A stretch of 34,342 nt of DNA from Planctomycetota bacterium (lineage in GTDB: Bacteria; Planctomycetota; Phycisphaerae; Sedimentisphaerales; Anaerobacaceae), in NCBI GenBank assembly GCA_012719085.1, contig JAAYBA010000021.1, positions 1 to 34,342 of the forward strand, in the 5' to 3' direction. Below the pieces are notes generated by a model. That model ran no database searches. It had not been told where the DNA came from and saw only the letters and a list, made by a program, of their open reading frames with translations. The translations under genes and the position numbers were made by a program. Positions 4,165-32,432 of this stretch are shown here, one piece after another; within the stretch, counting starts at the first letter, position 1; each line of letters starts with the position of its first letter.

Positions 4165-4202
4165 CTCGGTCGACAGCGGAGGGGTTCCCCGTCCGAAGGG
4201 GG

Positions 4203-4926: not shown

Positions 4927-5025
4927 ATGATGAACAGCTTCTATTACGAAACTTGGCTGCCGTTTGTCATCAGCAAGAGACGCATCCTCGTTCTGGCCAT
5001 TGCCAGCTATCTTGCTCTGTGCTGA
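4927..5025 (+). CDS. Putative 32-residue hydrophobic microprotein
   Basis: This is not a recognised family. The ORF starts with two ATG codons (4927 and 4930), preceded by a G-run (4912-4917) about 9 nt upstream that could serve as a ribosome binding site, and it follows a promoter with a perfect TATAAT. The product begins MMNSFYYETWLPF and ends with a hydrophobic helix after two arginines (RRILVLAIASYLALC, then TGA). It could be a single-span membrane peptide, the remnant of a truncated lipoprotein or membrane gene (the end resembles a lipobox that stops at the Cys), or chance. A 15-bp near-perfect palindrome (5059-5073) follows, directly beside the folP stop codon. Confidence 0.3.
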   Translation: MMNSFYYETWLPFVISKRRILVLAIASYLALC

Positions 5026-5073
5026 ACCCGCATCTTCCCGCTGGCCGATGCGCCGGACGTCGCCATTGGCGAC

Positions 5074-5925: not shown

Positions 5926-7078
5926 GCCGCCGTCCTTTCACCTTGAAACCGATTCCCAGAAGCTTGCGCACCAGGGCCCCTCCCGGCTCAGGCACGACGA
6001 CGGTCGTGTTGTGGAACTCCCGTCGCACCGGGTAGCCCTTTCGCAGGGCATCGAAGAACTGCCCCCTCGCCTCGGACGGCTCGCCGGCGATCCGCCTCAG
6101 GTCCCGGTCGTCCCGGACGATGGGGTAGACCTTCTCCACGGCCGATGCGATGGCCTCCTGCTCGTCGCCCACGTCATCGGGCAACTCGATCGTCGCCACG
6201 TCGGGAGCGGGCAGGAAATCGCCCACGTCGAACTTCGCCGGCAGGCCGAAGTGCTCGCAAAGGGCCTGGTAGATCATAATCAGGCCGGCGATCTTGCCGT
6301 CCAGCGAGTAGCCGGCGATGTGCGGCGAGCCCAGATCGACCGCATCAAGCAGGTCCGCGTCGATGTTCGGCTCGTTCTCCCAGACATCCAGAGCCACGGC
6401 CTTCAGTCGCCTGGCCGCGATGGCAGCCTTGAGGGCCTGCGAATCCACGACGGCGCCGCGCGAGGCGTTCACGAAGACCGCCCCCTGCTTGAGCGACGAG
6501 AAGAACCGCTCGTCCGCCAGATGATGGGTCTTGTCAGTCCCCTCCCGCGTCAGCGGCGTGTGCATCGTGATGAGGTCGCAGTCGAACACCGCCTCGATGG
6601 GCACGTATTTCGGGTCGCCCGTCCGCCGCTGGAGCGGCGGATCGTTACGTCGCACGTGCATCCCCAGCGCCTCGCACCTGGCCGCGACGCGCCCGCCGAC
6701 GTTGCCGACCCCCACCACGCCGATGGACCGGCCGTCGAGGCGGATGCCGTGCCGTCGGCCGATCTCCAGCAACGCCGCGATCACGTACTCGGCCGCCGAA
6801 GTGGCGTTGGAGCCGGGCGCCGAGGCGAAGCCGATGTGCCGCGCGTCAAGGTAGTCGAGATCGACGTGGTCGAAGCCGATCGTGGCGGTCGCAACGAACT
6901 TCACTGCGCTGCCCGACAGGAGACGCTCGTCGACGCGGGTGATGCTCCGCACAAGCAGCGCATCGGCGTCCGCGACCGCCTCCGGCGTCATCTCGCGCCC
7001 GCCCATGACCTCCACATCACCGACGGACGAAAAGCACTCGCGAACAAAAGGAATGTTCCCATCTGCGACAATCTTCAT
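5909..7078 (-). CDS. pdxB: 4-phosphoerythronate dehydrogenase
   Basis: PdxB oxidises 4-phospho-D-erythronate in the DXP-independent-start branch of pyridoxal phosphate synthesis. It belongs to the D-2-hydroxyacid dehydrogenase family. The N-terminus MKIVADGNIPFVRE, the ATIGFDHVD segment and PGSNATSAAEYV match PdxB rather than general SerA-type enzymes. The NAD-binding Rossmann motif is GVVGVGNVGGRVA, followed by VNASRGAVVD and the catalytic-acid region near SPHIAGYS. A C-terminal dimerisation extension of about 90 residues fits the usual ~380 length; the product is 389. It starts 6 bp after the amrS stop and overlaps folP by 17 bp, indicating a three-gene transcript. Confidence 0.92.
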   Translation of the reverse strand: MKIVADGNIPFVRECFSSVGDVEVMGGREMTPEAVADADALLVRSITRVDERLLSGSAVKFVATATIGFDHVDLDYLDARHIGFASAPGSNATSAAEYVIAALLEIGRRHGIRLDGRSIGVVGVGNVGGRVAARCEALGMHVRRNDPPLQRRTGDPKYVPIEAVFDCDLITMHTPLTREGTDKTHHLADERFFSSLKQGAVFVNASRGAVVDSQALKAAIAARRLKAVALDVWENEPNIDADLLDAVDLGSPHIAGYSLDGKIAGLIMIYQALCEHFGLPAKFDVGDFLPAPDVATIELPDDVGDEQEAIASAVEKVYPIVRDDRDLRRIAGEPSEARGQFFDALRKGYPVRREFHNTTVVVPEPGGALVRKLLGIGFKVKGRRREDDV

Positions 7079-19070: not shown

Positions 19071-19681
19071 CTCAAATCGCGATCGATGTCGCCCTGCTGC
19101 CGGAAGCGAGGATTGCCCGCCTTGCCATTGAGGTGAACCGAAAGTTGGTAGGCGGCGGCAAGGGGATCGTGCTGGATGAGAGCGCGTGTCTGCCACACAT
19201 CTCACTGGCAATGGGTTGCATGGAACGCTGCCAAACCGATTCCATCGGCAAGACGCTGACCGCGGTCGCAAGGGACTGTGTTCTCGATGAACTGACGATC
19301 ACGGGGATCGTCACCGTATTGAACGCGGCAGGTGAGCCGAATTCGCTCTTCGCTGTGGCGAAGACCAGGGCCCTTCAGACGTTGCACGAGCGGATCATGA
19401 TGGCGATGGAGCCCTATATGAGCCGAGAGGTCACCGCAGATATGATCTGGGGGGATGATGAGCCTGCGCCGAGCACGCCGGCCTGGGTTCGCGACTATCG
19501 CGAGAAGGCTGCATTTGCCGCGTTCTTTCCCCACATCACGATTGGATACGGAACGGTGGCTGAGCCGATGACGTTCCCGATCCGATTTGTCGCGCGGCAA
19601 ATAGCCCTTTGTCATCTGGGCAATCACTGCACGTGTCGCGAAGTGCTCGCCTCAGCGGCGATGCCTTTCAGTGGGCGATGA
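19067..19681 (+). CDS. 2H phosphoesterase superfamily protein (2'-5' RNA ligase-like)
   Basis: The 2H superfamily hydrolyses or ligates 2'-5' linked or cyclic phosphate RNA and nucleotides, using two H-x-[ST] motifs. Both are present: His44 in LPHISLAMG and His156 in FPHITIGYG, about 110 residues apart, with the expected small-residue strand context. The 204-residue length fits. Subfamily and substrate are unknown. The start codon overlaps the putP stop (ATGA), so translation is coupled to the symporter. The 3' end overlaps the 3' end of the convergent gspF-like gene by 14 bp, leaving no room for a separate terminator. Confidence 0.85.
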   Translation: MTQIAIDVALLPEARIARLAIEVNRKLVGGGKGIVLDESACLPHISLAMGCMERCQTDSIGKTLTAVARDCVLDELTITGIVTVLNAAGEPNSLFAVAKTRALQTLHERIMMAMEPYMSREVTADMIWGDDEPAPSTPAWVRDYREKAAFAAFFPHITIGYGTVAEPMTFPIRFVARQIALCHLGNHCTCREVLASAAMPFSGR

Positions 19682-20855
19682 CGCTGGAGACCCTGAAGAC
19701 GGGCAGCAGAAGTGCGATGGCGATCGTCCCGATCACGATGCCGAGAATGGTGATCATCAGCGGCTCGATCACGGTCATAACGCTCTGGATCGACGCCGCG
19801 AGCTTCTTCTCGTAGAAGACCGACACCTTGTCGCAGACGGCGCCGAGTTGCCCGGCCTTCTCGCCGGCCCGGAGCATCTGGATGATGCTCGGTGAGATCA
19901 GCTTCGCCCGCTCCGAGATGAGGATGGCTTCGGAGAGCTGGTAGCCGTCCTGGATCCTGCCGTCCACCTCCGCCCAGAGTTGCTCGAAGTCGTAATTGTC
20001 CACACAGCCCTGAATCACGTGGATGGCATCGAGCAGGCGAACACCGGTGTTGACCATCGTCGCCATGATGCGCATGCTCCGCGTCACGACCATGTCCACA
20101 AACATCGTGCCAATCACCGGAGTGCGGATCTTCACCCCATCGAGGATGCGCCGCCCGGAGATCGTATGAGACCACAGGTATAGGCCGAATCCAAGCAGAA
20201 TCACGGTCGTCACGAGCATCGCCATGATCTCTACGTTGCCCAGGATGCGGCTGAAGTGCACGAGGACCTGGGTCAGTTTCGGCAGAGCCGCCCCGCGTGT
20301 CTCATAAATACGCATGAAACGAGGCAGGACGAAGAACATCAGTGTTCCGGTGGCGGCAATGGCCATCAGGACCATGATCAAAGGATAGGTCAGGGCTCCC
20401 AAGACACGCTTGCGTGTATCGGCCTCGAAGGTGAGATACCCGGTCAAGACGGTGAGCATCTCGACCATCTTTCCGGAGGCTTCGGAGGCCTTCACCATAC
20501 TGATGAACATCCTGTTGAAGATGCCGGGATAGAACGCCAGGGCCTTCGAGAACATCTCCCCGCTCTTGACCCGTTCAGACAGATCGAGGATGACCGCTTT
20601 GAAGCGGGGATCTGCCGCCTGTTCGCCAATGGCATCGAGCGCATCGCTGAGGATGACGCCGCTGTCCAGCATGACCGCCAACTGGGTGGTGAACAAAATC
20701 AGATCGGTGCTCTTGACCCGGACCCGTTCCATCGCCCTTATATCCGGCGCATGGCGAACGATCTCGCCAGGCTCCGGCTTGCCGCCCCCGGTCGCATCCG
20801 ACACTGCAGCGGCATTCGAGCCGGCCTGTCGCATCTCTGCTGTCACTGTTGCCAT
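19668..20855 (-). CDS. gspF: Type II secretion / type IV pilus inner-membrane platform protein (GspF/PilC)
   Basis: GspF/PilC is the polytopic platform that couples the assembly ATPase to the growing pilus. The 395-residue product has two T2SSF repeats, each with a cytoplasmic helical bundle and a membrane segment. Repeat one begins LILFTTQLAVMLDSGVILSD (about 52-71) and contains FYPGIFNRMFISMVKASEAS; repeat two begins MVVTRSMRIMATMVNTGVRL and ends in the hydrophobic C-terminus. The first ~45 residues are a Gly/Pro-rich lead without known domain. It is 26 bp after the gspE gene and is the last gene of the minus-strand pilus run. The start has only a weak ribosome binding site. Confidence 0.95.
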   Translation of the reverse strand: MATVTAEMRQAGSNAAAVSDATGGGKPEPGEIVRHAPDIRAMERVRVKSTDLILFTTQLAVMLDSGVILSDALDAIGEQAADPRFKAVILDLSERVKSGEMFSKALAFYPGIFNRMFISMVKASEASGKMVEMLTVLTGYLTFEADTRKRVLGALTYPLIMVLMAIAATGTLMFFVLPRFMRIYETRGAALPKLTQVLVHFSRILGNVEIMAMLVTTVILLGFGLYLWSHTISGRRILDGVKIRTPVIGTMFVDMVVTRSMRIMATMVNTGVRLLDAIHVIQGCVDNYDFEQLWAEVDGRIQDGYQLSEAILISERAKLISPSIIQMLRAGEKAGQLGAVCDKVSVFYEKKLAASIQSVMTVIEPLMITILGIVIGTIAIALLLPVFRVSSVIAH

Positions 20856-20881: not shown

Positions 20882-22618
20882 TCAGGATTCGACCGTCGTT
20901 GGTGCATCCAACGCGGCAATTCGCAACACCTCTTCGATCGATACGATCCCCGCCTTGACCTTCTCGATACCATCGAAATGCAGCGGACTCATCCCCTTGG
21001 CCAGGGCGACCGCACGCAGTTTCTTGGCGCTGATCCGCTCGTTGATCATCTCCATGATCTCATCGTCTGGGACGAGCAGCTCATGAATGGCGATTCGTCC
21101 GGCGTACCCGGTGTTGCGACATTTCTTGCACCCGAGACCTCGATAGAACTTGCATGTTTGCCCTCCCTGAGCCTGGACGGCCTTCTTCAGACTGGCCGGT
21201 GGATCGTATTCGGTTTTACAGTTCGGGCAGATCTTGCGGACCAGACGCTGGGCCAGCACCCCCTTAAGCGAAGCGCTGACCAAGTACGGGGCCACGCCCA
21301 GATCGAGCAGCCGCGTCACCGCGCCCGGCGCATCATTGGTGTGCAAAGTTGAGAGCACCAGGTGCCCGGTCAGGGCGGCCTGGACGGCGATGTTGGCTGT
21401 AGCCTGATCGCGGATCTCGCCGACCATGATGATATCGGGGTCCTGTCTTAACAGGCTCCTTAGAGCGGTCGAGAACTCGAACCCGACTCCGGTATTGACC
21501 TGGAACTGGTTGATGCCCGAGATGTTGCATTCGACCGGGTCTTCCACGGTGCAGATGTTCACCTCTTCGTTGTTGAGCTCCGACAACGCCGCATAGAGCG
21601 TGGTGTTCTTGCCCGACCCCGTCGGACCCGTGACAAGAACGATGCCGTTGGGCACCTGAATGACTTCGCGAAAACGCTGGAGATTGTCGTAGGTGAAACC
21701 GAGCGACTCGAGGTTGTACAGGATCTTCTGCGGGTCGATGACGCGAATGACGACCTTTTCGCCGAAGTTGCCCGGCATTACCGAGACGCGCAGGTCGATG
21801 GGTCGGCCCTCAACGAGGACGTGAATGCCGCCGTCCTGCGGCAGACGACGCTGGGCGATGTCCAACTCGGCCATGATCTTGATGCGCGAGACCACCGCCG
21901 CGTGCATCTGGTGCGGCGGACGCATCTTCTCGTACAGCTTGCCATCGACGCGGTAGCGGACGCGCAGCCGCTTCTCATCGCACTCGATGTGGATGTCGCT
22001 GGCGTTCTCCCGGACCGCGTTGTACAGCAGATAGTTGACCAGCTTGACCACCGGCGACTGGCCGGCCACCTCTTCGAGATTGCTGATGTCCTGCGTGATG
22101 CTCTCGATCAGCGTGAACTCTTCGAGACCCTCGTCGTCAATGATGTCGTCGATCACGAAGACGTTGGCCGCCGGCAGATAGGACTGGAGCGTGGCTCTGA
22201 TGTCCTTGGTGGTCGAGCAGACGACGCGGACCCGGCACCCGCTGATCCGCGCGATCTCGTCGAGCAGAAAGACATTCGTCGGCTCGTTGACCGCCACGGT
22301 CAGGACGTCGTGCACCTTGAACAGGGGCAGGACGATGTGGGCTTCCAGGAACTCGCGCGGCAGTAGTTCCACCGCCTTGGGATCACACAACTTTGGACTT
22401 ACCTGCGCGTACGGAACGCCGTAGGCTTCGGCCAGAGCCGCCGCGATCTGGTTCTCTGTGCAGTAGCCCATCTCGACAAACAACTCGCCGAGCAGCTTGC
22501 GATGGCCCTTGTCCTGTTGCTCGGCGAGCGCATGGTCGATCTGCTCCTGAGTGACCACACCCCGCGCCAGCAGAAGCTGGCCGAGCTGCATCTTATTCTC
22601 AAGCAGAATCTGGCTCAT
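20882..22618 (-). CDS. gspE: Type II secretion / pilus assembly ATPase GspE/PilB, with MshEN-type N-terminus
   Basis: This hexameric ATPase powers pilus or pseudopilus assembly at the inner membrane. Residues 10-70 form a MshEN-type region with two short repeats (LGQLLLARGVVTQEQIDHAL from 12; LLGELFVEMGYCTENQIAAA from 42), the fold that binds c-di-GMP in MshE. The ATPase core has SDIHIE (208-213), Walker A GPTGSGKNTTLY (331-342), the Asp box EDP (359-361), Walker B DIIMVGEIRD (395-404) and the His box STLHTND (423-429). A tetracysteine zinc site is at C464, C467, C497 and C500. The residue after the Walker lysine is Asn338, where Ser or Thr is normal. The 578-residue length is normal. The STAS gene lies 33 bp upstream. 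Confidence 0.96.
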   Translation of the reverse strand: MSQILLENKMQLGQLLLARGVVTQEQIDHALAEQQDKGHRKLLGELFVEMGYCTENQIAAALAEAYGVPYAQVSPKLCDPKAVELLPREFLEAHIVLPLFKVHDVLTVAVNEPTNVFLLDEIARISGCRVRVVCSTTKDIRATLQSYLPAANVFVIDDIIDDEGLEEFTLIESITQDISNLEEVAGQSPVVKLVNYLLYNAVRENASDIHIECDEKRLRVRYRVDGKLYEKMRPPHQMHAAVVSRIKIMAELDIAQRRLPQDGGIHVLVEGRPIDLRVSVMPGNFGEKVVIRVIDPQKILYNLESLGFTYDNLQRFREVIQVPNGIVLVTGPTGSGKNTTLYAALSELNNEEVNICTVEDPVECNISGINQFQVNTGVGFEFSTALRSLLRQDPDIIMVGEIRDQATANIAVQAALTGHLVLSTLHTNDAPGAVTRLLDLGVAPYLVSASLKGVLAQRLVRKICPNCKTEYDPPASLKKAVQAQGGQTCKFYRGLGCKKCRNTGYAGRIAIHELLVPDDEIMEMINERISAKKLRAVALAKGMSPLHFDGIEKVKAGIVSIEEVLRIAALDAPTTVES

Positions 22619-22651: not shown

Positions 22652-22987
22652 TTAGGCGAAGCTCCGGACGGCTTCGGCAAGTTCCGTATGACAGTCGAAT
22701 TCCGTTTGCAGGCCCGTGATCTCGAGGATCTTATCGAGAGTCTCATCAAGACCCGCCAGTTTGAGCTGTGTGCGGCTGCGGCGGCAGTATTCCCGCGCCC
22801 ACAGCAACAGTTCCAGTCCCTGGCCGTCGATGGTGCTGACGTTGCTCATATCGATGACCACTCGCTTGCGACCGGTGGTGATGGTCTCCACGACAGTGTC
22901 TTTCAGGGTGTCTGCAATGTCCCCGTCGATCTCACCCTGGAGTTCAATCACCGTGACGTCGTTGTAATTCTGGCTGTTGATCTTCAT
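22652..22987 (-). CDS. STAS-domain protein (anti-anti-sigma factor fold)
   Basis: STAS proteins act as phosphorylation-controlled partner switches. The 111-residue product covers just one domain, with the strand VTVIELQGEIDG and the segment VVIDMSNVSTIDGQGLELLL. In classical anti-anti-sigma factors the turn after ID reads SSG, with Ser as the phosphorylated residue. Here it is Gly55-Gln56-Gly57, so the usual phosphosite is absent. Thr52 or Ser51 nearby could serve instead, or regulation may not use phosphorylation. The start overlaps the HD-GYP stop by 4 bp (ATGA). No sigma factor or anti-sigma kinase lies alongside. Its place before gspE suggests a link to pilus motor control. Confidence 0.9.
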   Translation of the reverse strand: MKINSQNYNDVTVIELQGEIDGDIADTLKDTVVETITTGRKRVVIDMSNVSTIDGQGLELLLWAREYCRRSRTQLKLAGLDETLDKILEITGLQTEFDCHTELAEAVRSFA

Positions 22988-24660
22988 CGCAGCAAGGTCC
23001 CCACGGCGGTGGTTCCATAATCGGCGAAGTGGGCGCCGCCATACACGGACGGATTGTTCCCCTGGATCAGATCCCAGAGGTGGTAGATGTCGCTTTCGAG
23101 AAAGACCGTCCCGACCTTCACGTCGAACTGTGTCCCCAGTCCTTTTCGGATCTCATCCAGCGCCTGGTCCACCGTCATGGCATCGCGGTAGACCCGTTTC
23201 GAGGTCATCGCGTCGAAACTGTCGGACAACCCGACGATCTTCGCGGTTAGTGAGATCTCGTCACCGATCAGACCTTCCGGATAGCCCTTGCCGTCCACGC
23301 GTTCGTGATGGTGCAACACGCCGGGAACGATGTCGCGCATTTGCTTGATGCCGCGCAGAATCCCCGCTCCGATCGATGGATGACGCTGGATGCGCTCTCG
23401 CTCTTCCTCGGTGAGCCGGCCATTCTTGCGCAGAACGCTTTCATCCACACCGATCTTGCCGATGTCATGCAAGAGCCCGGCCAGATAGATCCGATGGATC
23501 TGTTCATGATTCAGCGATTCACGTTCCGCCACACGTTCGGCGAGCCATTGCGAGATGATCGCCACCCTCTCAGAATGCCCTCGGGTATACTGGTCCTTGG
23601 CATCGATGCTGTTGGTCAGAGCGCGCAGCGATCCAACAAAGAGTTCCTTGAGATCGTTGAAGAGGCGCCCGTTTTCGATGAACACCGCACAGCCGCTGGC
23701 AACGGAGGCGAAGAGCTTCATATCCGTGCTGTCGAAATCGGGCTTGTCAATCCGATTGACCGCGACCATATAGCCCATGATCGCCACTGTATTCTGGACG
23801 CGGCCGGCGACGTGCGAACTCTGCGCGCCCTTCGTACACAGGGGTACCGCAATGATGTTCCGGACGCTCGCAGGCCAGTCGTAACGGAATGGTGAATCCA
23901 CCTCGCTGTCCAGCAAGGCTTCCTGAGCGCGATGGAGTTCTTCCGTCAGGCGACTGTGTAACAGGGCCGTCATGTGAGGTGGCAGGTCGATGAGCCCAGA
24001 GCCGGCCGCCACCATGAACCGCTTCTCGCCCTCAAGCGTTCGTTCCAGAACGATGGCAATTCCTTCTACCGGGACGATATCGGTAAGGCTGTCGCAGGCC
24101 AGTTGCAGGAACGTGCCATCCGATTCCGTGACCTTCATATTCGTGTTGATCTTGTGCAGAAGGACGAGTTCCTCGTACACCTGGGCCAGCTCCATGCCCA
24201 TCTTCTCCATCTGCTCGTCACTGCGCGTGGCGTCCTGAAATTTCTGCACAGCCAGTTGAATCAACTCGCTGATATAGGCCGAATCCGGGGCTTGTCCGTC
24301 GGCCCACGACGCGTTTTCGCCCAGATCGACAACCATGACACCCGCAAGACGGACACAACCAGGGCTGTTGCACGGAAGACACAAGGCAGTGGCCAGCAGC
24401 ACATGACCGTCGCAGAACTGCCACACGCGACCTTCGCCGCTTCCCTCGGTACGCTCGCGGACGGCCTGGCACACGGCATGTCCCACATCGACGACGGCCT
24501 GCGCATCGCTGGCGAACCGTCCGGCATCATGGCGGAGCACAATCTGGCCGTCTGCGTCCAAAACAGCCAGGTTGACGCCAAATCCTCCGATGCGCGCGGC
24601 GAATCGCTCGAGATCGCGTCGTTGCAGGCACGTCAGTCCTTGTGTCGTGGTATTCGGCAT
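22984..24660 (-). CDS. GAF/HD-GYP protein, probable c-di-GMP phosphodiesterase
   Basis: HD-GYP enzymes degrade c-di-GMP. Numbering from 24660, the HD motif is LLHDIGKIG (His398, Asp399) and the GYP motif is HHERVDGKGYPEG (about 451-463). Residues about 175-335 form a GAF-like sensor with a dimer helix, MELAQVYEELVLLHKINTN, before it. The first ~140 residues form an extra domain with a cysteine group (C83, C94-x2-C97-x4-C102; CLPCNSPGC) whose fold I cannot name; it may sense redox state or a metal. The frame is open 27 codons upstream, but AGGAGG lies 3 nt before this ATG. The product is 558 residues. It follows the receiver gene and is coupled to the STAS gene. Confidence 0.92.
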   Translation of the reverse strand: MPNTTTQGLTCLQRRDLERFAARIGGFGVNLAVLDADGQIVLRHDAGRFASDAQAVVDVGHAVCQAVRERTEGSGEGRVWQFCDGHVLLATALCLPCNSPGCVRLAGVMVVDLGENASWADGQAPDSAYISELIQLAVQKFQDATRSDEQMEKMGMELAQVYEELVLLHKINTNMKVTESDGTFLQLACDSLTDIVPVEGIAIVLERTLEGEKRFMVAAGSGLIDLPPHMTALLHSRLTEELHRAQEALLDSEVDSPFRYDWPASVRNIIAVPLCTKGAQSSHVAGRVQNTVAIMGYMVAVNRIDKPDFDSTDMKLFASVASGCAVFIENGRLFNDLKELFVGSLRALTNSIDAKDQYTRGHSERVAIISQWLAERVAERESLNHEQIHRIYLAGLLHDIGKIGVDESVLRKNGRLTEEERERIQRHPSIGAGILRGIKQMRDIVPGVLHHHERVDGKGYPEGLIGDEISLTAKIVGLSDSFDAMTSKRVYRDAMTVDQALDEIRKGLGTQFDVKVGTVFLESDIYHLWDLIQGNNPSVYGGAHFADYGTTAVGTLLR

Positions 24661-24718
24661 GGCCCTCCTCACGGTCAGCAGGTTCCAGGGGATTCGGCGT
24701 TCATCGCCGTCGGCACGT

Positions 24719-25111
24719 TCAACCCCGAACGGCCACAGCACGCTGATACAGGATGTCCTGGATCGTCTTGAGCAGTTCCTTGGGACTGAAAGGTTTGCTC
24801 AGGCACTCTTCGATCCCAAGCGATTCCTGCATTTCCTGCGTGATGGCGAAACTGCGCGCCGTCAGCAGAACCGCGGGGATGTGCTTCGTCTCCTCGTTCC
24901 TTCGCAGCTTTTCGATCAGCTCGATCCCGGTGACGAATGGCATCTGATAGTCCGTCACGATGATGTCGGGCTTCTCGCTGCACGCGAGTTCATAGGCCTC
25001 CGCTCCATTGTTGGCCGCAACGACGTCATATCCATTGTTCCGCAGTTTGATGGCGACAACGTGAATGATGTGAATTTCATCATCCGCAACCAGCACCTTT
25101 TTGCCTGTCAT
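24719..25111 (-). CDS. Receiver-only response regulator (CheY-like)
   Basis: The 130-residue protein is a single receiver domain. Acidic residues are at Asp10 and Asp11 (VLVADDE), the phospho-acceptor is Asp54 (VTDYQMP), the switch Thr84 is in LLTA and Lys106 is in SKPF. The frame is open well upstream, into the histidine kinase gene, but the ATG at 25111 has GGAG 9 nt before it and the fold starts right after. There is no output domain, so it must act by binding a protein. The kinase gene ends 64 bp upstream and the HD-GYP gene starts 58 bp downstream; both are the natural upstream and downstream partners. Confidence 0.92.
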   Translation of the reverse strand: MTGKKVLVADDEIHIIHVVAIKLRNNGYDVVAANNGAEAYELACSEKPDIIVTDYQMPFVTGIELIEKLRRNEETKHIPAVLLTARSFAITQEMQESLGIEECLSKPFSPKELLKTIQDILYQRAVAVRG

Positions 25112-25175: not shown

Positions 25176-26624
25176 TCACCGGGTCGCGCCGGCCAGTTCC
25201 GCGGCGGCCAGAGGCAGTTCGAATCCAAACGTGCTTCCGACTCCGACCTGACTTGCCACAAAGACCCGGCCATTGTGCACTTTCTCAACGATTTGACGGA
25301 CCAGGTTCAACCCCAGACCGGTCCCTTTGGCTTGTTTATTGTTGGCGCCTACACGATAGAACTTGTCGAATACATGGTTGATCTCATCGGCCGGGATTCC
25401 TACCCCGGTATCGGTGACTGTCACGCGCGCCATCGCATCGACTTCGTTCACGTCTGTCTCGATCCGAACGCTTCCTCCGGCCGGCGTGTACTTGACGGCG
25501 TTGCTCAGCAGGTTCACGATGACCTGGCTGATCATGTCCTTGTCCGCCATGACCTGATCGTATACGATGGGGTTGCATCCGGTGACCGTGATGCCCTTGT
25601 CCTCGGCGAACCCCTTGATCATCTGCATTTGCTGTTCGATCAGAATCGTCAGGCTGACCGGCTCTTTCTGGACCTTGATCAACCCCGATTCGATTCGTGA
25701 GACATTGAGAATGTCCTCAATCAGACGATTGAGCCGCTGTGCCTGACTCTGAATGACCTGGTAGAACTCCTTGCGCGTCTGTTCGTCGTCCGCCTCGCCA
25801 TCGACGAGCATCTCGGAATACGCCGTGATCGAGGCCAATGGCGTCTTCAATTCGTGCGAGACGTGGCTGACGAAGTCGTTCTTCATCTGCGCCACCTCCT
25901 TCTCTCGCGTGATGTCGTGCAGCACAGCGACCACGCCGGAGACCGTGTCCTGTTCCTGCACGCACGAGACAATCGTATCGAACGTGCGGGGACCGTCGGG
26001 TCCGGCGAACGCCATCTCCCGTCGCGTGGCCTCGGTGGCGCTCTGCCGGCTGCGTTGGATCAACTCGACAAAGTCCTCGTACTGCGCATCGAGGTTGCGG
26101 CCCAGCGGCTGGTAACGGGCCTGTTCCGGATCGAACGCAAACAGGTGAGCGGCTGCCGTGTTGGCCATCAGGAGGCGGTCCGATTCATCCACGACCACCA
26201 CCGCGTCGCGGAGACTGTAGATGATTGCCTCGGTGTGCTGCTTCTGCCGATCGGAAAGCCGCGACCGAAGACGAAGATCCTTCAGTTCGGTTTCCAGCTC
26301 GGCGATGGTCTTCTGTCCATCCTGTAGACGCGTCTGAACGGTCTCTGCTGCTCGCTCGATCGTCTGCAAGTCGGTCGCAGCGGCCGAATCCCATGTGAGC
26401 TGCCGAGCTATGGACGCAACCGTCCGGGCCAGCCGATGATAGGCCAGACCGAGGACGATCACGCCCACAGCCCCAAGGCAGCATGCGGCAAGACGCCACG
26501 CAGCGAATCCGCTGCGCCACCCTTCTCCGATGCCAGAATCGTACGGCCCGGTCAGGGCCGCGAGGCACAGCGAGGCCATCACCGTACCAACCGCGGCCCA
26601 AACCAAGCGTCTTTGACGTCTCAC
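25176..26624 (-). CDS. Membrane sensor histidine kinase with PAS domain
   Basis: The 482-residue kinase has two membrane helices (about 8-25 and 45-62) with only ~20 residues outside, so it probably does not have a classical periplasmic sensor domain. A coiled-coil region (about 85-125) leads to a PAS domain (about 130-240, with VVVVDESDRLLMANTAA and VVAVLHDITREKE). The HisKA motif is VSHELKTPL with His257, followed by the N box NLLSNAVKYTP, G1 DTGVGIP, F box FDKFYR and G2 GTGLGL. The start is a GTG with GGAGGAG 5 nt before it. It follows the secretin by 57 bp and precedes the receiver gene, with which it likely forms a phosphorelay. Confidence 0.93.
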   Translation of the reverse strand: MRRQRRLVWAAVGTVMASLCLAALTGPYDSGIGEGWRSGFAAWRLAACCLGAVGVIVLGLAYHRLARTVASIARQLTWDSAAATDLQTIERAAETVQTRLQDGQKTIAELETELKDLRLRSRLSDRQKQHTEAIIYSLRDAVVVVDESDRLLMANTAAAHLFAFDPEQARYQPLGRNLDAQYEDFVELIQRSRQSATEATRREMAFAGPDGPRTFDTIVSCVQEQDTVSGVVAVLHDITREKEVAQMKNDFVSHVSHELKTPLASITAYSEMLVDGEADDEQTRKEFYQVIQSQAQRLNRLIEDILNVSRIESGLIKVQKEPVSLTILIEQQMQMIKGFAEDKGITVTGCNPIVYDQVMADKDMISQVIVNLLSNAVKYTPAGGSVRIETDVNEVDAMARVTVTDTGVGIPADEINHVFDKFYRVGANNKQAKGTGLGLNLVRQIVEKVHNGRVFVASQVGVGSTFGFELPLAAAELAGATR

Positions 26625-26681: not shown

Positions 26682-28412
26682 TCAGCGTCTCTTCCAGTTC
26701 TTGGCCTCTTGCTGGTCGATCGCCTGCTGGACGATGCTGTCGATCCGCTCGAGTTCGGCCGGATCGGTTTCGACGACGATCCGCTCGCGAAGCCGTAGAG
26801 CTTCGAGATAAGTCGGGCGCATCATCAGCGAGACCTTCACGTTGTACATAGCGCTATCGACATCGCCTTCGAGATAGTACTTGGCGGCCCGGGCATAGGC
26901 GTCTTCGGCCAATCGGGCGCGATCGATCGCCTGCATACTTTGCTTGGCGCCGTCCATCTTCAGGCGAATGTCATCCGCCCGGTCGGCCCCGCCCGTCTGC
27001 GACGGCTCATGGATGATGTGCGGCGTCAGCATGATGATCACCTCTTCCCGCTGCGCCGTATCTTTGGTGCCTCGGAACGCCGCCCCCACTAAAGGCAGAT
27101 TTCCAAGAAGCGGCACCTGCGACCGCACCGTGGTCACCCCGTCCCGGAACAGACCGCCGATAACGACTGTCTCCTTGTCCTTGACGATTACGTTCGTACG
27201 TAATTCCGTGGTCGTTTCATCCGGAATGTTGTTCTGCTTCAATGTGCCGTCACTGTCCTTCGGATAGATGTCCATCCGGATGTATCCATCGTTGCCGATG
27301 TACGGACGGAAGACCAGCCGGGTACCGGTTTCCAGAAAGTCCACCGATTCGGTGGTCGAGGTCTGGGTCTGCGTGCTCTGGTTGACGTAGCCGATCTTTT
27401 TACCGATCAGCACCGAGCCCTCCTGCTTGTTGACAGCCAGGATCTTCGGATTGGCCAGCAGCGTCGTGTCCGTTACATCCTCCAGAGCAGTGATGATCGC
27501 CTGGACGTTGTCGGACGAGAAGCCGACCGTCATTCCCTTGGTTCCGGGTGTGTTGGCGAAGCCAAACGTCTCCCACGGTGTCCCTTGCCCACCGACGAGG
27601 TTGGCGGGGAAATCGCTGATCGCCACACCGCTGAGCAGGTTCCAATCGACGCCGAACTGCATCGTCTCTGTGAGGCGCACCGCCAGAATGGTCGCCTCGA
27701 CCAGCACCTGCTTCGGGCGGACGTCGACCTGGGCAATGACCTTCTCGGCCCTCTCGATGTTCTCGGGATAGTCGAAGATCACGATCATGTCATTCAACGC
27801 CATCTTGTCGCCGCCCCCGCCACCGGAGAGCGAACCGCCGCCACCGGAGCCACCCGCCGAGGAAATACTGCTCTCAGCGGCAGTGGTCGTGGTGATTTGC
27901 GCCGCGGCGCTGAGCACCGGTCGGATCAGCTTCTCGGCCTCCTGCGCCGTCGTGTAATACAGCGTGATGACCTTGAAGACCATCCGGTCCGGGTCCTGGC
28001 GGATCTTCTTGTCCTCGTCCTTGGTCCGAATGTGAATCAGATTCCCTTCCGGCACGGCGACGAACTTGTCGCCCAGCATGGCGGCCAGCGCCTGCTCGAA
28101 GGTCACATCCCGCAGTTCCGGGCAATTCAGCGGCCCGGTCACGCCGGGCGAAGGAACGATGTTCTTTTCGCACCGCTTGGCGAGCAGCCGCAGTCCGTCA
28201 CGGACATCGCTGTCCTTCCGGAAGGCGATGAACTTGATCAGATCGCCTTCCACCCAGGCCTGATCCGGTTCCATGGCAATGGTGTCTGTGGCGCTGTCCG
28301 CTGACACCGTATCGCTTTCGGCGCCGGTGGCAGTGGCACACCAGGTCAGCAGGGCCACGGCGAGAAGCCAGCGACCCCAACGAAGTCTCGTGAATGTCTT
28401 GTCATTATGCAT
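26682..28412 (-). CDS. pilQ: Outer-membrane secretin (PilQ/GspD family)
   Basis: Secretins form the outer-membrane gate for pili or secreted proteins. Numbering from 28412, there is a signal peptide (about 10-31, RWLLAVALLTWCATATGA), an STN/N0-like domain (about 69-112), an N-domain interrupted by a Gly/Ser-rich insert (about 187-202), and the secretin core (about 240-468), ending VPLLGNLPLVGAAFRGT and EVIIMLTPHII. A 100-residue tail after the core contains a TPR-like helical pair (DAYARAAKYYLEGDVDSAM). The ATG at 28412 is chosen for AGGAG 7 nt upstream; the frame is open further. The length is 576 residues. It sits after pilMNO and the PilP-like gene, the usual order. Confidence 0.94.
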   Translation of the reverse strand: MHNDKTFTRLRWGRWLLAVALLTWCATATGAESDTVSADSATDTIAMEPDQAWVEGDLIKFIAFRKDSDVRDGLRLLAKRCEKNIVPSPGVTGPLNCPELRDVTFEQALAAMLGDKFVAVPEGNLIHIRTKDEDKKIRQDPDRMVFKVITLYYTTAQEAEKLIRPVLSAAAQITTTTAAESSISSAGGSGGGGSLSGGGGGDKMALNDMIVIFDYPENIERAEKVIAQVDVRPKQVLVEATILAVRLTETMQFGVDWNLLSGVAISDFPANLVGGQGTPWETFGFANTPGTKGMTVGFSSDNVQAIITALEDVTDTTLLANPKILAVNKQEGSVLIGKKIGYVNQSTQTQTSTTESVDFLETGTRLVFRPYIGNDGYIRMDIYPKDSDGTLKQNNIPDETTTELRTNVIVKDKETVVIGGLFRDGVTTVRSQVPLLGNLPLVGAAFRGTKDTAQREEVIIMLTPHIIHEPSQTGGADRADDIRLKMDGAKQSMQAIDRARLAEDAYARAAKYYLEGDVDSAMYNVKVSLMMRPTYLEALRLRERIVVETDPAELERIDSIVQQAIDQQEAKNWKRR

Positions 28413-28481
28413 AGCGTTACTCCTGTTCTTCCACATCCTGCTTGATCCTACTGATTTCATTATCGTTCTAAAGCACATCGG

Positions 28482-29090
28482 TTACTTGCTTACGTCGGTT
28501 GGCGGCGATAGCTTCAGCGTGTACTGTCTATCTCCGCATGTCATCATCACAGCGTCTTTCTGAATCTGTACTACTTCGAATGGGTAGAAGTCCGTACCAT
28601 CCTGAAGTGCGAGCGTGTCCCCGACGCGAATCAGTCGATCGTTGACAAATGCCTGCGGGTGCTCGCTCCACAGTACGGCCTCCAGCTCGAGTGTCTTGGC
28701 CAATCTGGTGATCACTTCTTCTGTTCGACGGGTTTGTTCAGTCTTCACATTTGCTTGCTGTATTGTGCCTTGCGATCGGGAGCCACTTTCGAACCGGCTC
28801 CAGTCGTTCGCAGTAAAGAAGTCGCGATGAATACGGTCGTTCCGCCCCGGCTCGACCGGTAGGTCGACGAACCGTATCGACGGTCTTTCGTCAACCACCT
28901 CGGCGGTCTTCTGCGGAGAGGCCGGCCTGGCGTCGGCCGCATCGGGTTTCTGCCCGGCCAGGACCCGCAGCCACATCACCGCCATAATGGCTACGAGGGC
29001 AACGGCCACGCCCGTCTTTCGGCCGTCTCGGACCAGATAACCTGCCAACCGGCCGGCCGAGCCAAGCATATGTGTCGCATTACGCGTCAT
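28482..29090 (-). CDS. PilP/GspC-like inner-membrane protein
   Basis: The protein has one N-terminal membrane span (about 26-45, KTGVAVALVAIMAVMWLRVL), a disordered and charged middle part, and a C-terminal beta-rich stretch (about 133-195: LEAVLWSEHPQAFVNDRLIRV, then DFYPFEVVQIQ). That end resembles the HR domain of GspC or the globular part of PilP, which link the inner-membrane complex to the secretin. Position between pilO and the secretin gene supports the PilP role. Its start overlaps the pilO stop by 11 bp. It lacks a lipobox, unlike many PilP proteins, which makes it closer to GspC in topology. The length is 202 residues. Confidence 0.7.
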   Translation of the reverse strand: MTRNATHMLGSAGRLAGYLVRDGRKTGVAVALVAIMAVMWLRVLAGQKPDAADARPASPQKTAEVVDERPSIRFVDLPVEPGRNDRIHRDFFTANDWSRFESGSRSQGTIQQANVKTEQTRRTEEVITRLAKTLELEAVLWSEHPQAFVNDRLIRVGDTLALQDGTDFYPFEVVQIQKDAVMMTCGDRQYTLKLSPPTDVSK

Positions 29091-29694
29091 CGTTCACGAC
29101 ACCCCGCAACTTGGCGCTCGTCGACTTACCGGCCTCCTGCGTCTTCTGTGCGCGATAGAAGATGACGGCGTCCGCTTCCATCACCACGACGCCGCTGAAT
29201 TCTCGATCGTTGGCCAGCGTGGTCCTTTCGACCCGCACAAGCCGGTCAAGCTTCTGAAGATCGGTGAAGAAGCCGAAGATACCGGCCAGGTTCCCCGAAC
29301 ATTTCATGTGCACCGGGATGCAGACCAGATCGTTCGACGCGTCTTCCTTACCGAAGACAACGTCCTGATCCGACAGACCGTGTTCGGTCATGATGTGCGC
29401 GATCTGTCCCAGAAACAGCCCCAGCGCACTCTCATCCGGAATCCGATCCCGGGTGTTTCCAACGCGGTGATCGATCTCCTCCAGGCGCGCCCTGAGGGCG
29501 CCGAGCACTTCGCTCTGCGATTCGGCTGTACGGATCATCTGCATCTGCTGGCTCTTTGCATCGGTCACGGACTGGAGTCGCTCGCGCGACGGCAGATACC
29601 CATACAATACGAAATCGGCGAGGAAGAGCCCACCGACGGCGAAGACCCATAACTGCTGTCTTCGCAGCAACGATCTGGATCGACTCTCGCTCAT
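29080..29694 (-). CDS. pilO: Pilus assembly protein PilO-like
   Basis: PilO is a bitopic inner-membrane protein that dimerises with PilN. This 204-residue protein has one membrane helix (about 14-34, LWVFAVGGLFLADFVLYGYL), a coiled-coil segment (about 40-80, rich in Gln, Arg and Glu) and a C-terminal ferredoxin-like core, with LGLFLGQIAHIMTEHGLSD and CIPVHMKCSGNLAGIFGFF. Start and stop overlap neighbours: ATGA with pilN upstream, and 11 bp with the PilP-like gene downstream. The family is weakly conserved, so the call rests on size, topology and order as much as on sequence. Confidence 0.85.
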   Translation of the reverse strand: MSESRSRSLLRRQQLWVFAVGGLFLADFVLYGYLPSRERLQSVTDAKSQQMQMIRTAESQSEVLGALRARLEEIDHRVGNTRDRIPDESALGLFLGQIAHIMTEHGLSDQDVVFGKEDASNDLVCIPVHMKCSGNLAGIFGFFTDLQKLDRLVRVERTTLANDREFSGVVVMEADAVIFYRAQKTQEAGKSTSAKLRGVVNDDA

Positions 29695-30395
29695 CGCTTG
29701 TCTCGCTCCTCATAGTTGGCCAGATAGCAGACGATTTCGAACTCAGTAACCCCAATCGTCTGTGTCTCCTTGCGTCGGCTATCTTCTTCGGACGCCGCAG
29801 CGAACTCAATCGTCTTCTCGCGATACAGCGGATGAACCTGCTGGAAATAGGGCGAGTCGCCCAGGCGACAGACGAGGGCTCCGACCTCAGCCGAGTTGGC
29901 GGCAATCCCCATCAATGCCACGCGGAATCGGACGTTTCCGAGGGAAACCGCCTTCGTCGAAGTACGCGAGGCTCCGGCGATTCGTACTGCCGAGCCGCTG
30001 CGATCCGCGTCCTTGCGAGCCGTCGAGAACGGTTCGGAGAGGAACTCCACACGGCCCAGGACCACACGTTCGCCGATCACGTGGCTGATCTCCGCCAGCA
30101 CGGCCGCCATATCGATTCGCGCATCGACCCGCTGAAGAGCGGCCACCTCGGCTTGTTGCGTGCCAAGCTGCTTGCTCACAGCATCATATTCGCGCATGAT
30201 ACCTTCGGCCCAATATCGTCGGTCTTCCAGCCGAGCCAGTTCGGCGTTTACACGCGCGACCCGGTGCGACGCAACCGTGTTGTAGGTCACCATCGCAAGG
30301 AAGAAGGCGATCAGCACGGCGTATTGCCGTCTCATGTGAAGGCGGCGACGTCGACCTTCCTTGTGCCATTCCGGAAGAAAGTCGATCTCTTTCAT
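29691..30395 (-). CDS. pilN: Pilus assembly protein PilN-like
   Basis: PilN binds PilM through a short N-terminal cytoplasmic tail and pairs with PilO. The tail here is EIDFLPEWHKEGRRRR, close to the classical INLLPWR-type PilM-binding motif in position and character. A membrane span follows (about 22-40, YAVLIAFFLAMVTYNTV), then a coiled coil (about 45-95) and a C-terminal domain. The 234-residue length is somewhat more than the usual ~190; part of the excess is a Ser/Thr/Lys-rich loop near residues 125-150. It overlaps pilM and pilO by 4 bp each, so it is tightly coupled to both. Confidence 0.85.
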   Translation of the reverse strand: MKEIDFLPEWHKEGRRRRLHMRRQYAVLIAFFLAMVTYNTVASHRVARVNAELARLEDRRYWAEGIMREYDAVSKQLGTQQAEVAALQRVDARIDMAAVLAEISHVIGERVVLGRVEFLSEPFSTARKDADRSGSAVRIAGASRTSTKAVSLGNVRFRVALMGIAANSAEVGALVCRLGDSPYFQQVHPLYREKTIEFAAASEEDSRRKETQTIGVTEFEIVCYLANYEERDKR

Positions 30396-31543
30396 GAGGG
30401 CGCCCCTTCCAGGATCGATTCAAGCCCGAGATCGGATTTCACCAGTTCGGCCGTCGAAGTGCCCCATCCCTTGAGGGTGAGCCCCACGGCCAGAGCGAAA
30501 TCTGCCGTCGAACCGAAGTCTTCGATTCGAGTGCCGATCTGCCCCAGGTCGAAGCCGCGAAATGGCTCCGCCACGTCCGCTTCGATCGCCAGGTGATGTC
30601 TCATCACATCGAGGAAGGCCTGCTCCGCGACACCGCCGCCGGAGACAATGGCCCGTTCAACCCGTTTGCCACGGAACGTCACGGTGTAGTATCGCAGACA
30701 CAGCGCGATTTCGGCGGCCAACTGCTCGGCCGTCGCGTGCAGCGTGTCGCGGACAAGCCGACGCGTCGTCGGATCGCCCGTATCGGACGACAGCATCGCG
30801 CGGCGCAGCGCCTGCACATCCGCCAGAGGGATCGACAGCTTCGCCGCCACATCTTCGGCAAAGCGTGCCGCGCCGAAGGCCATCTGCTTGACGAAGCAGA
30901 TCTCGCCCGTGCGTCCGAGCACGACTGTGGTGTAGCGATGGCCCAGGTCGAGGAACATGATGGTTCGTTCCCTGTCCTCCTGACGTCGCATCACCCGCTC
31001 GAAGTTGCGAAACAGCGCGCACGGCCCCGCATCGACGCCTACCGGCCGCAGGCCGAGATCTTCCAGCCGTCCTACGTGGGTCCGGATCGTCTCGTCGTCG
31101 CTGGCGAACAGGATGTACTCATTCTTGACCTCGTCGCCCTGCCTAACACTGCCGGCCGATACGTAATGAATGGTATCGGCCCGGGGATCCAGAGCGAACC
31201 GGTGGGCCGCCTCCCTGCGCAGCGTCTTCTCAACGTCATCCATCTCCGTCTCTGCCAGACGCAGCGACGTGATCCGCAGCCCGCTTGCCGGCAGGGCCGA
31301 GACCACATCGCGTCCTTTGAATGCACCGGCCGTCATCAGACGCCGGATGGCCGGCGCCACCTGCTGCCGCCAGGAGTTCTCATCGCGTGCATCGCTCAGG
31401 TCAACAGCGGCTCTCTCGGCCGCGAGCAGCCGCACTCCGTCGTCACAGACGGCCAGTTGGACCATCTTGATCGCACGGTGTCCGATGTCCAGCCCGATGG
31501 GCAGAACCTTCTGTCGTCTTGTCATCCAATGGCCGATCTGCAT
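30392..31543 (-). CDS. pilM: Pilus assembly actin-like ATPase PilM
   Basis: PilM is a cytoplasmic FtsA-like protein that binds ATP and the PilN tail. The three actin-like motifs are visible: phosphate-1 GLDIGHRAIKMVQL near the N-terminus, phosphate-2 MFLDLGHRYTTVVL in the middle and the adenosine motif IVSGGGVAEQAFL toward the end. The 383-residue length is typical (about 350). The start is uncertain: the ATG at 31543 and the one at 31525 both lack a clear ribosome binding site. The gene begins 10 bp after the pseudopilin stop and overlaps pilN by 4 bp. Confidence 0.92.
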   Translation of the reverse strand: MQIGHWMTRRQKVLPIGLDIGHRAIKMVQLAVCDDGVRLLAAERAAVDLSDARDENSWRQQVAPAIRRLMTAGAFKGRDVVSALPASGLRITSLRLAETEMDDVEKTLRREAAHRFALDPRADTIHYVSAGSVRQGDEVKNEYILFASDDETIRTHVGRLEDLGLRPVGVDAGPCALFRNFERVMRRQEDRERTIMFLDLGHRYTTVVLGRTGEICFVKQMAFGAARFAEDVAAKLSIPLADVQALRRAMLSSDTGDPTTRRLVRDTLHATAEQLAAEIALCLRYYTVTFRGKRVERAIVSGGGVAEQAFLDVMRHHLAIEADVAEPFRGFDLGQIGTRIEDFGSTADFALAVGLTLKGWGTSTAELVKSDLGLESILEGAPS

Positions 31544-31553
31544 GTCACATCAC

Positions 31554-32072
31554 TCAATCCGAGACGGAGATGAATCCCGTCACCGCCTCGACTGTTACTG
31601 TCCGGCTGATGTCCCCGGCCTGCAAAACCACGTTGCCGCCGTTATCCGGGCTGCCGAGCGAGTTGAACGTCACGGTATTGTCGGTGAAACTTGTGTTGAG
31701 AAGATCCACGCGATCCAGTCTCCCGTCGGCGGCGAAATCGACGATATACCCGTTCTCCTTCTGGGTGATCGGGTGTTTGATCACCGTGCCGGTCGTCAGG
31801 TTCTTGATCGAATAACGTTCGTTCCCCGGCTCAAATACGACTGAGTGCGGCTGGCCCGTCGTAATGGCCATACTCTTGGCGTATTCGAGGTCGGCCGCCA
31901 CGATCCCCCCCGCCGCGCGAATCTGCATGCTCGCCGCCGAGGAGATCAAGGGCACCGCAATCGCCGCCGTGATCCCGATGATCACGATTACGATCAACAA
32001 CTCGATTAGTGTGAATCCGCCGTCGAATTGCGTCGCCCGTCCAACAGATTGTGTCTTCATATTCCTATTCAT
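31554..32072 (-). CDS. GspH-like type II secretion / type IV pseudopilin
   Basis: The 172-residue protein has a short leader ending in Gly19 and the class III cleavage motif GG/FTLIELL, with Glu24 at mature position +5. A hydrophobic helix follows (about 20-45), then a small GspH-type beta domain (about 50-170) containing AADLEYAKSMAITTGQPHSV. Such minor pseudopilins prime and tip the filament. The ATG at 32072 is about 11 nt after GGAGG, rather far; Met5 is an alternative. It precedes pilM by 10 bp. Confidence 0.9.
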   Translation of the reverse strand: MNRNMKTQSVGRATQFDGGFTLIELLIVIVIIGITAAIAVPLISSAASMQIRAAGGIVAADLEYAKSMAITTGQPHSVVFEPGNERYSIKNLTTGTVIKHPITQKENGYIVDFAADGRLDRVDLLNTSFTDNTVTFNSLGSPDNGGNVVLQAGDISRTVTVEAVTGFISVSD

Positions 32073-32432
32073 CTTTCACCCTACCTCCGTTGTCTCTTCG
32101 GTCGGTCAGGGACTCGGCTTAACTTCCGGTCCCGGCCGAAATGCGACAATCGGTTACGTCGGCACAAACAAGCGGCATCACACAGACCCCGTCGGCTTCG
32201 CCTGCGACGCCATAGGACGCACGACCGTCACACCCGTCACACCCCACGCCCAACGTCCCGAAAAACACACTGGCAGCGACCGCTTGCGACCGCGACGCGG
32301 CGCCGTCCGCAGACCGATCCTCGAAAGACCACCCCATTCCACAGGCCCGTGCACGATTCGTTTTTTTCGTGCGGGGGGCTCGGGGACCGATAACCAGTCG
32401 GGCACTTCGGGACGAACTCATCAGATTTCCTC
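32073..32432. other. Intergenic region before the GspH-like gene, with stem-loop and 9-bp tandem repeat
   Basis: No supported gene lies here. A stem-loop at 32345-32379 pairs GCACGA (32351-32356) with TCGTGC (32367-32372), and GCCC with GGGC outside, around a loop that contains seven T on the plus strand (A on the minus strand). It lies 54 bp after the pilX-like stop and lacks a U-tract, so it is not a standard terminator. A 9-bp tandem repeat (CCGTCACAC twice) is at 32225-32242. A minus-strand frame (32119-32421) has a plausible ribosome binding site but shows no domain and no raised third-position GC. Confidence 0.5.

Follow-up and report, generated by a model that had tools for sequence, protein, structure and literature searches.

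The 34,342-nucleotide stretch of contig JAAYBA010000021.1 analyzed here (the window), from a Planctomycetota bacterium of the class Phycisphaerae, carries on its reverse strand a type II secretion (T2S) or type IV pilus-like gene cluster, among whose products is a GspE/PilB-type assembly ATPase of 578 amino acids (positions 20882 to 22618; Pfam T2SSE, 450.7 bits). In the direction of transcription, the cluster comprises a GspD/PilQ-like secretin (26682 to 28478; Secretin, 132.7 bits), a PAS histidine kinase (HK) with two N-terminal transmembrane stretches discernible by eye (25176 to 26624; PAS, 40.5 bits; HisKA, 72.5 bits; HATPase_c, 101.8 bits), a stand-alone REC response regulator (24719 to 25111; Response_reg, 81.6 bits), a predicted HD-GYP phosphodiesterase (PDE) with an N-terminal sensor and GAF-like region (22984 to 24741; HD_5, 134.4 bits), a STAS-domain protein of 111 amino acids (22652 to 22987; Pfam STAS, 66.9 bits; TIGR00377, 70.1 bits with a cut-off of 53.45), the ATPase itself, and a GspF/PilC platform protein (19668 to 20855; T2SSF, 153.4 bits). 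As the ATPase scores just below the curated cut-offs of both the GspE equivalog TIGR02533 (612.7 versus 630.25) and the PilB equivalog TIGR02538 (607.5 versus 675.65), “GspE” serves here as a working name. The subject of the present analysis is the N-terminal domain of this ATPase, a divergent version of the MshEN domain that binds cyclic di-GMP (c-di-GMP) in MshE. We propose, at about even odds, that the motor ATPase bearing this domain is where a conserved control operon delivers its output.

A first-pass annotation, made from the sequence alone, had located MshEN-type repeats at positions 22419 to 22591 and had assigned them to residues 10 to 66, which correspond to positions 22421 to 22591, the interval thus being right to two bases. 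The repeats are borne out by two profiles scoring above their cut-offs, NCBIfam NF053729 (“cyclic di-GMP-binding domain-containing protein, MshE-related”) at residues 11 to 64 (56.8 bits; cut-off 38; E value, 1.4e-15) and Pfam MshEN (PF05157) at residues 66 to 149 (64 bits; cut-off 23.1; E value, 1.2e-17), values by which a chance repeat is ruled out as the source of the motifs. Residues 11 to 65 are a tandem MshEN_N unit, in which motif I (QLG...Q; residues 11 to 34, positions 22517 to 22588), delimited by the NF053729 match and by conservation, is separated by a 7-residue spacer (residues 35 to 41, positions 22496 to 22516; 5 residues in MshE) from motif II (LLG...A; residues 42 to 65, positions 22424 to 22495), which was delimited by conservation in orthologues. 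The MshEN_C subdomain follows (residues 66 to 149, positions 22172 to 22423), defined by the PF05157 match and by an AlphaFold2 model. Based on the numbering and spacing given in the MshEN paper (PMC5013675), residues Arg9, Gln32, Arg38, and Gln61 of MshE correspond to Gln11, Gln34, Leu42, and Ala65 of the window ATPase. Motif I, QLGQLLLARGVVTQEQIDHALAEQ, has Gln11 in place of its first Arg and retains Gln34, precisely as had been annotated. Motif II, LLGELFVEMGYCTENQIAAALAEA, ends in Ala65 rather than Gln, also as annotated, and additionally carries Leu42 for its first Arg, a replacement on which the annotation was silent. Accordingly, three of the four Arg/Gln positions of the MshE motifs differ in the window ATPase, the Leu42 change being one that is tolerated elsewhere.

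The AlphaFold2 model of ATPase residues 1 to 154, generated with 32 aligned sequences (mean pLDDT, 88.1), begins helix 1 at residue 12 and is of low confidence across residues 1 to 9. Structural comparison with MshE, which the first-pass annotation had suggested as a check, was performed using VIA-align and identified c-di-GMP-bound MshE (5HTL) as the best match (Z score, 17.6; 140 aligned residues; rmsd, 2.7), followed by c-di-GMP-bound PilF GSPII-B (Z score of about 16), Xanthomonas PilB-PilZ (15.1), XpsE (2D28; 14.8), and PilF GSPII-A (12.2). A match confined to nonbinding GspE N1 domains, which would have spoken against the annotation, was not observed, given that MshE and PilF GSPII-B head the ranking and XpsE and PilF GSPII-A occupy lower positions. 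An XpsE-type nonbinding N1 domain was likewise rejected as the nearest relative, the Z score of 14.8 versus 17.6 and about 16 for the ligand-bound forms being suggestive only. The profile matches and the predicted fold support the assignment of an MshEN domain, the fold alone being no proof of ligand binding.

Conservation of the putative ligand site was assessed in 51 orthologues (loci L031 to L082, which share genomes with the set L001 to L030, less L074, whose N terminus is missing). Gln34 and Leu42 are present in all 51, position 11 is occupied by Gln in 47, Pro in 3, and Arg in 1, and position 65 is occupied by Ala (28), Gly (10), Ser (8), Thr (3), or Val (2) and never by Gln. Across 42 nonredundant orthologues, the 14 positions treated as ligand contacts display a mean entropy of 0.23 bit versus 0.66 bit at the rest of residues 11 to 66 (Mann-Whitney P value of 0.0025). 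Ten of these contact positions do not vary at all, among them Gln34, the two LG pairs, and all but one of the six hydrophobic-triad positions. Nine noncontact positions, among them Cys53, Asn56, Gln57, and Tyr66, are likewise invariant. Among more distant relatives at the class level, L150 possesses Arg at the first motif position, and the last Gln of motif II is, by eye, absent from these relatives also.

The consequences of such replacements for binding may be gauged from published MshEN variants. PilF GSPII-B of Thermus thermophilus has Lys and Leu at the two Arg positions, binds c-di-GMP with a KD of 6 nM, and led its authors to widen the consensus to (R/K/L)LG...Q (PMC11731258). The rule that loss of both Arg residues abolishes binding is thereby broken, and, because Leu at the same position is tolerated in a 6 nM receptor, Leu42 is not considered an obstacle to binding. 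When the widened consensus is applied to the window ATPase, motif I deviates at its start (Gln11) and conforms at its end (Gln34), and motif II conforms at its start (Leu42) and deviates at its end (Ala65). In PilF GSPII-B, replacement of the motif II Gln by Glu (Q218E) gave a KD of 460 nM and Q190E one of 950 nM, and the double variant did not bind. Single changes of Arg9, Asp12, or Gln32 in MshE altered affinity no more than fivefold according to the 2016 MshEN paper (PMC5013675). The accessible parts of the MshEN literature yielded no characterized precedent for Gln11 combined with Ala65. Binding of c-di-GMP by the window ATPase is, on the basis of its sequence, probably weakened to below MshE grade.

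As for the genetic context of the ATPase gene, the order HK, REC, HD-GYP, STAS, and ATPase is nearly fixed in the orthologous Phycisphaerae loci. Counting only those of the 52 loci with enough upstream DNA, a STAS gene precedes the ATPase gene in 51 of 51, an HD-GYP gene in 49 of 49, a REC gene in 44 of 45, an HK gene in 42 of 43, and a secretin gene in 32 of 36; L079 is without REC, HK, and secretin matches, and L034, L060, and L082 are without a secretin match. Three relatives from other families of the class (58 to 63% identity) have an identical gene order, and the nearest relatives of the window genome reach 97% identity at best. The HD-GYP gene, reported in the first-pass annotation as lying two genes upstream, is indeed the second gene upstream, with the STAS gene in between; neither the STAS gene nor the HK/REC pair had been mentioned there. 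Regarding the individual products, the HD-GYP gene is listed with a GTG start, an ATG at position 24660 being the likelier initiation site, and its HD and HHE..DG.GYP motifs are intact in the window and conserved in a 52-row alignment. The GAF domain of this protein scores below the Pfam cut-off (14.4 versus 28.6 bits), and its designation rests on alignment to the corresponding enzyme of another phylum (see below). The Asp and Lys residues of REC are conserved across the orthologues. In the STAS protein, the position following the conserved Asp, which we take to be the phosphorylatable Ser site of SpoIIAA, is position 55; the window protein has Gly there, and the 51 orthologues divide into 44 with Ser and 7 with Gly. 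As a separate observation, a locus recorded as Actinomycetota (L096, positions 199 to 4492) harbors an HK and a REC gene directly before an MshEN ATPase gene, with no STAS or phosphodiesterase gene between them, on a contig which ends just upstream of the kinase gene.

A counterpart of this operon was identified in the Pseudomonadota. Five distant loci (L083 to L087, recorded as Gammaproteobacteria, with L084 derived from the Olavius algarvensis Gamma 3 endosymbiont) encode ATPases in which a STAS-like domain is fused ahead of MshEN. The Pfam STAS cut-off of 22.6 is exceeded in three of the five, L085 (20.4) and L086 (16.8) scoring below it, and a model of the STAS and MshEN portions (mean pLDDT, 79.8) matches SpoIIAA-type STAS structures. 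Matches to STAS-fused MshEN ATPases were found in 15 of 369 sampled genomes of the class to which one of these loci belongs, the genome at the center of the sample being included in the 15. Fifteen loci, from 14 genomes, were fetched, of which 13 exhibit the order HK, REC, GGDEF/EAL, and STAS::ATPase, and GspF was seen after 12 of these 13 complete sets, L133 ending inside the ATPase gene. In the two incomplete sets, L132 is without HK, REC, and PDE matches, and L135 is without a PDE match. The GGDEF-EAL proteins of the 13 complete loci and of L083, L084, L085, and L087 were inspected for catalytic signatures. All EAL signatures examined are intact in 15 of these 17, the remaining two (L138 and L140) having lost the second Glu of the AExVE stretch, and an intact GGDEF motif is retained by only 4, on which grounds the possibility that these proteins act mainly as cyclases was rejected. 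With the EAL signatures preserved beside a GGDEF motif that has mostly decayed, the output that these operons seem to conserve is phosphodiesterase activity. The ligand motifs of the associated ATPases are more complete than those of the window: among 20 STAS-fused ATPases, both Gln residues are retained in every one, 19 have Arg or Lys at position 9 (L138 being gapped at motif I), and 18 have Arg at position 38, the other two having Lys and Gln, respectively. The related operon thus appears to pair an MshEN ATPase of more canonical sequence with another likely phosphodiesterase, which supports the concept of a local circuit.

Whether the two operons represent one system or mere look-alikes was evaluated at the level of their individual components. 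The L083 kinase identifies the window kinase first among the 14 matches reported in the window genome (145.6 versus 120.8 bits for the next), and the window kinase, in turn, finds the operon kinase (identified by position) first in all five genomes tried. As each ranks the other first, the L083 and window kinases are reciprocal best matches, the remaining four genomes having been tried in one direction only. The REC protein of L083 similarly finds the window REC first (63.8 versus 48.5 bits). In addition, the HD-GYP and GGDEF-EAL proteins can be aligned with each other in their N-terminal halves, across 268 columns (probability, 97.6; E value, 2.6e-12), and the part before GAF aligns on its own at an E value of 1.6e-6 (probability, 90), compared with 0.056 or worse for four unrelated sets. 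Taken together, the best matches of kinase and REC and the homologous N-terminal halves suggest, as the simplest interpretation, a single ancestral scaffold whose catalytic domain was exchanged. An ATPase tree was also constructed from the C-terminal 510 residues of a selection of 48 sequences, including 6 of the 52 loci L031 to L082 and 16 of the 20 STAS-fused ATPases, in which the window clade and the STAS-fused clade each form one side of a fully supported branch. Since this tree does not resolve their relation, a sister relation of the two ATPase clades was dropped as proof of a shared operon.

A further peculiarity of the window ATPase, also overlooked in the first-pass annotation, resides in its Walker A motif, GPTGSGKN (residues 331 to 338, positions 21605 to 21628), which departs from the canonical P-loop pattern GxxxxGK[ST] through the presence of Asn338 (21605 to 21607) in place of Ser or Thr. 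Asn occupies this position in all 51 informative loci of L031 to L082 (one being masked) and in 40 of 41 whole-genome orthologues, the window included (L001 to L030, L141 to L144, and L160 to L166, with genomes shared with L031 to L082), the exception being L164, which has Ser. Ser is found in the class-level relatives L145 to L147 and in ten more distant ATPases (L167 to L176). Walker B, the Asp box, the His box, and the cysteine motif are retained in the window ATPase. The position of Asn338 is, we presume, comparable to that of the S17N substitution in Ras.

On the basis of these data, the following mode of operation is proposed. The membrane histidine kinase would hand its phosphate to the stand-alone REC protein, which, once phosphorylated, would tune the sensor-GAF phosphodiesterase either directly or via the STAS protein. 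Docking of STAS at the N terminus of the ATPase would hold this relay at the motor, such that c-di-GMP would be cleared locally, and the MshEN domain would read the local c-di-GMP level and set motor activity, in whichever direction that control may run. We tentatively extend this, at somewhat less than an even likelihood, to a control unit homologous in Planctomycetota and Pseudomonadota, consisting of an HK, a stand-alone REC, a sensor-GAF scaffold with an exchangeable HD-GYP or EAL phosphodiesterase, and a STAS adaptor that is either docked on or fused with an MshEN motor ATPase. In the window's order, the motor would further have acquired a fixed Asn in Walker A and a ligand site that is half eroded, and the subunit gated by c-di-GMP and STAS would then be a modified, possibly nonhydrolyzing one. 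The local loop between HD-GYP and ATPase envisaged in the first-pass annotation is therefore plausible and has gained comparative support from the cross-phylum operon, although the ligand site of the ATPase is incomplete. With the receptor half altered in the window's Phycisphaerae clade (Gln11 and Ala65), weakened rather than MshE-grade binding is expected.

Several observations weigh against this proposal. Conservation of the contact positions fits a retained pocket but would also fit a retained fold. Neither the original binding consensus nor its extended version accommodates Gln11 or Ala65, and the sequence breaks the MshEN authors' relaxed pattern at the opening residue of each motif and, within motif II, at Cys53 and the closing residue as well. 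Binding by the R9A variant of MshE fell by 83%, and this variant did not function in vivo (PMC4624772), even though the later MshEN paper limits the effect of such single changes to fivefold. PilF GSPII-A does not bind, truncated constructs having required the restoration of one Arg and both Gln residues for measurable binding (PMC12002112). Moreover, the window and STAS-fused clades are not joined in the ATPase tree; placed closest to the window clade (support, 100/99) is a paralogue encoded on contig C6 of the same genome, flagged as a long branch, around which no HK, REC, STAS, or HD-GYP matches were found in the 7.5 kb fetched. Nor is a close ATPase universal, as 9 of 294 genomes of a phylum sample, in which only four candidates per genome were scored, match at an E value of 1e-220, all from the class to which the window belongs.

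Alternative explanations differ chiefly in what they make of the altered sites. It is conceivable, if rather unlikely, that the MshEN_N bundle of the window clade has lost c-di-GMP binding altogether and now acts as a protein-docking site, most likely for STAS. Such a role would account for the consistent lack of the last motif II Gln in 51 of 51 orthologues, the Gln at the first motif I position in 47 of 51, and the invariance of the noncontact residues Cys53, Asn56, Gln57, and Tyr66; it would also accord with the direct fusion of STAS ahead of MshEN in other genomes and with the N-terminal domain of PilB from Xanthomonas (X. citri), which binds PilZ and whose ND0 part is described as being without binding motifs (PMC8389850). 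It is less easily reconciled with the 10 of 14 invariant contact positions, a fold nearest to ligand-bound forms, and the presence of a phosphodiesterase gene nearby in 49 of 49 loci. The domain might, conversely, be an ordinary MshE-type receptor with sub-micromolar affinity for c-di-GMP, HD-GYP simply lowering ligand levels as the first-pass annotation had proposed. The NF053729 score above its cut-off, the Arg at the first position in L150, the favorable Leu at the second Arg position of PilF GSPII-B, and the residual 460 nM affinity of Q218E (which introduces Glu, not Ala) argue for this view, which we nonetheless deem unlikely in light of the missing precedent for Gln11 plus Ala65 in the accessible literature, the R9A data for MshE, the 7-residue spacer, and the class-level relatives that also appear by eye to have lost the last Gln.

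The altered Walker A motif raises the prospect that Asn338 impairs Mg-ATP use and that the ATPase has ceased to be a full motor, serving instead as a regulatory subunit or pseudo-motor together with the canonical C6 paralogue. Asn is shared by all 51 informative loci and by 40 of the 41 whole-genome orthologues, which lends some substance to this idea, as does the C6-type paralogue, which has Walker A Ser in all eight sampled genomes that also hold the orthologue and in the own-genome copy, the latter being the nearest row in the tree. Retention of Walker B, the Asp box, the His box, and the cysteine motif, and the position of the ATPase's own GspF gene directly after it, render the idea improbable as it stands. 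Finally, STAS proteins often serve in partner switching with sigma-factor regulators, and operon membership alone is no proof of interaction, from which one might suppose that the operon carries the STAS gene and the HK/REC pair as unrelated passengers and that the phosphodiesterase acts globally. In view of the near-fixed gene order across the class and the fusion of STAS to the ATPase in the related set of another phylum, this is regarded as highly improbable.

The c-di-GMP repertoire of the window's own genome (94.85% complete) comprises nine MshEN, three GGDEF, two HD-GYP, three PilZ, and no EAL matches, and both HD-GYP genes are located within two genes of an MshEN ATPase gene. The second HD-GYP (contig C4; L104, positions 980 to 3229) is a GGDEF-HD-GYP fusion with an N terminus that is CBS-like by eye, and one open frame separates it from an MshEN-type ATPase gene (L104, positions 4273 to 6009) whose product has a seemingly degenerate first subdomain. 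A paralogous ATPase encoded on contig C499 (L102, positions 1696 to 3429) carries, by eye, a complete MshEN motif pair (RLG...Q twice), thus indicating that a better receptor is present in the same genome; among the own-genome ATPase copies, it is the likeliest c-di-GMP receptor.

Comparison with characterized systems places the window operon close to, yet distinct from, several precedents. MshE of Vibrio cholerae (5HTL) shares with the window ATPase its fold, tandem 24-residue repeats, LG pairs, first Gln, most hydrophobic triads, and location N-terminal to a T2SSE ATPase. It differs in having Arg9, Arg38, and Gln61 (Gln11, Leu42, and Ala65 in the window) and a 5-residue spacer (7 in the window), and STAS does not appear in the text of the MshEN paper. 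PilF GSPII-B similarly resembles the window domain in its fold (Z score of about 16) and in the Leu that starts motif II but differs in possessing Lys at motif I, both Gln residues, and a measured 6 nM affinity. In Xanthomonas, a two-component system, PdeK-PdeR, likewise steers a c-di-GMP phosphodiesterase which acts on the partners of a pilus ATPase (FimX-PilZ-PilB; PMC11656802), though there the EAL domain belongs to the response regulator itself and FimX and PilZ serve as adaptors, whereas the window encodes REC alone, a separate phosphodiesterase, and STAS as a candidate adaptor; the terms “STAS” and “HD-GYP” are absent from the text of that review. The HsbA-HsbD pair of Pseudomonas aeruginosa also involves an anti-anti-sigma factor which interacts with a c-di-GMP enzyme affecting type IV pili (PMC5085249), but the enzyme is a cyclase in an HptB/flagellar setting and, as far as the accessible parts of that paper indicate, does not lie beside a pilus ATPase gene. 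A control unit linking STAS with a pilus or secretion motor ATPase and c-di-GMP was not found described in the one open-access library searched, which is in itself weak evidence.

Local c-di-GMP signaling is usually argued species by species, and the two operons described here offer what appears to be an evolutionary swap experiment, in which the kinase, receiver, sensor scaffold, STAS, and motor stay together and the catalytic domain of the phosphodiesterase changes family. If this interpretation is correct, hydrolysis of c-di-GMP at the motor would be the conserved purpose of the unit, STAS would become a candidate adaptor for assembly ATPases, and the range of MshEN sites, from complete to eroded, would provide a natural series for testing receptor requirements. 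The fixed Walker A Asn, in turn, could be used to test whether certain assembly ATPases serve as regulatory subunits and not as motors.

The remainder of the cluster, located upstream of the secretin gene and on the same strand, comprises (28482 to 31543) a gene without a Pfam match, GspC-like by position only, a PilO gene (45.7 bits), a PilN-like gene (18.8 bits, below the cut-off of 22.8), and a PilM gene (PilM_2, 78.8 bits), and, farther upstream (31554 to 34217), genes for a GspH-type pseudopilin (GspH, 31.1 bits; N_methyl, 29.2 bits) and a Laminin_G_3 protein (80.6 bits). The last of these, a lectin-like product encoded at positions 32433 to 34217 beside the pseudopilin, is possibly a filament-tip adhesin.

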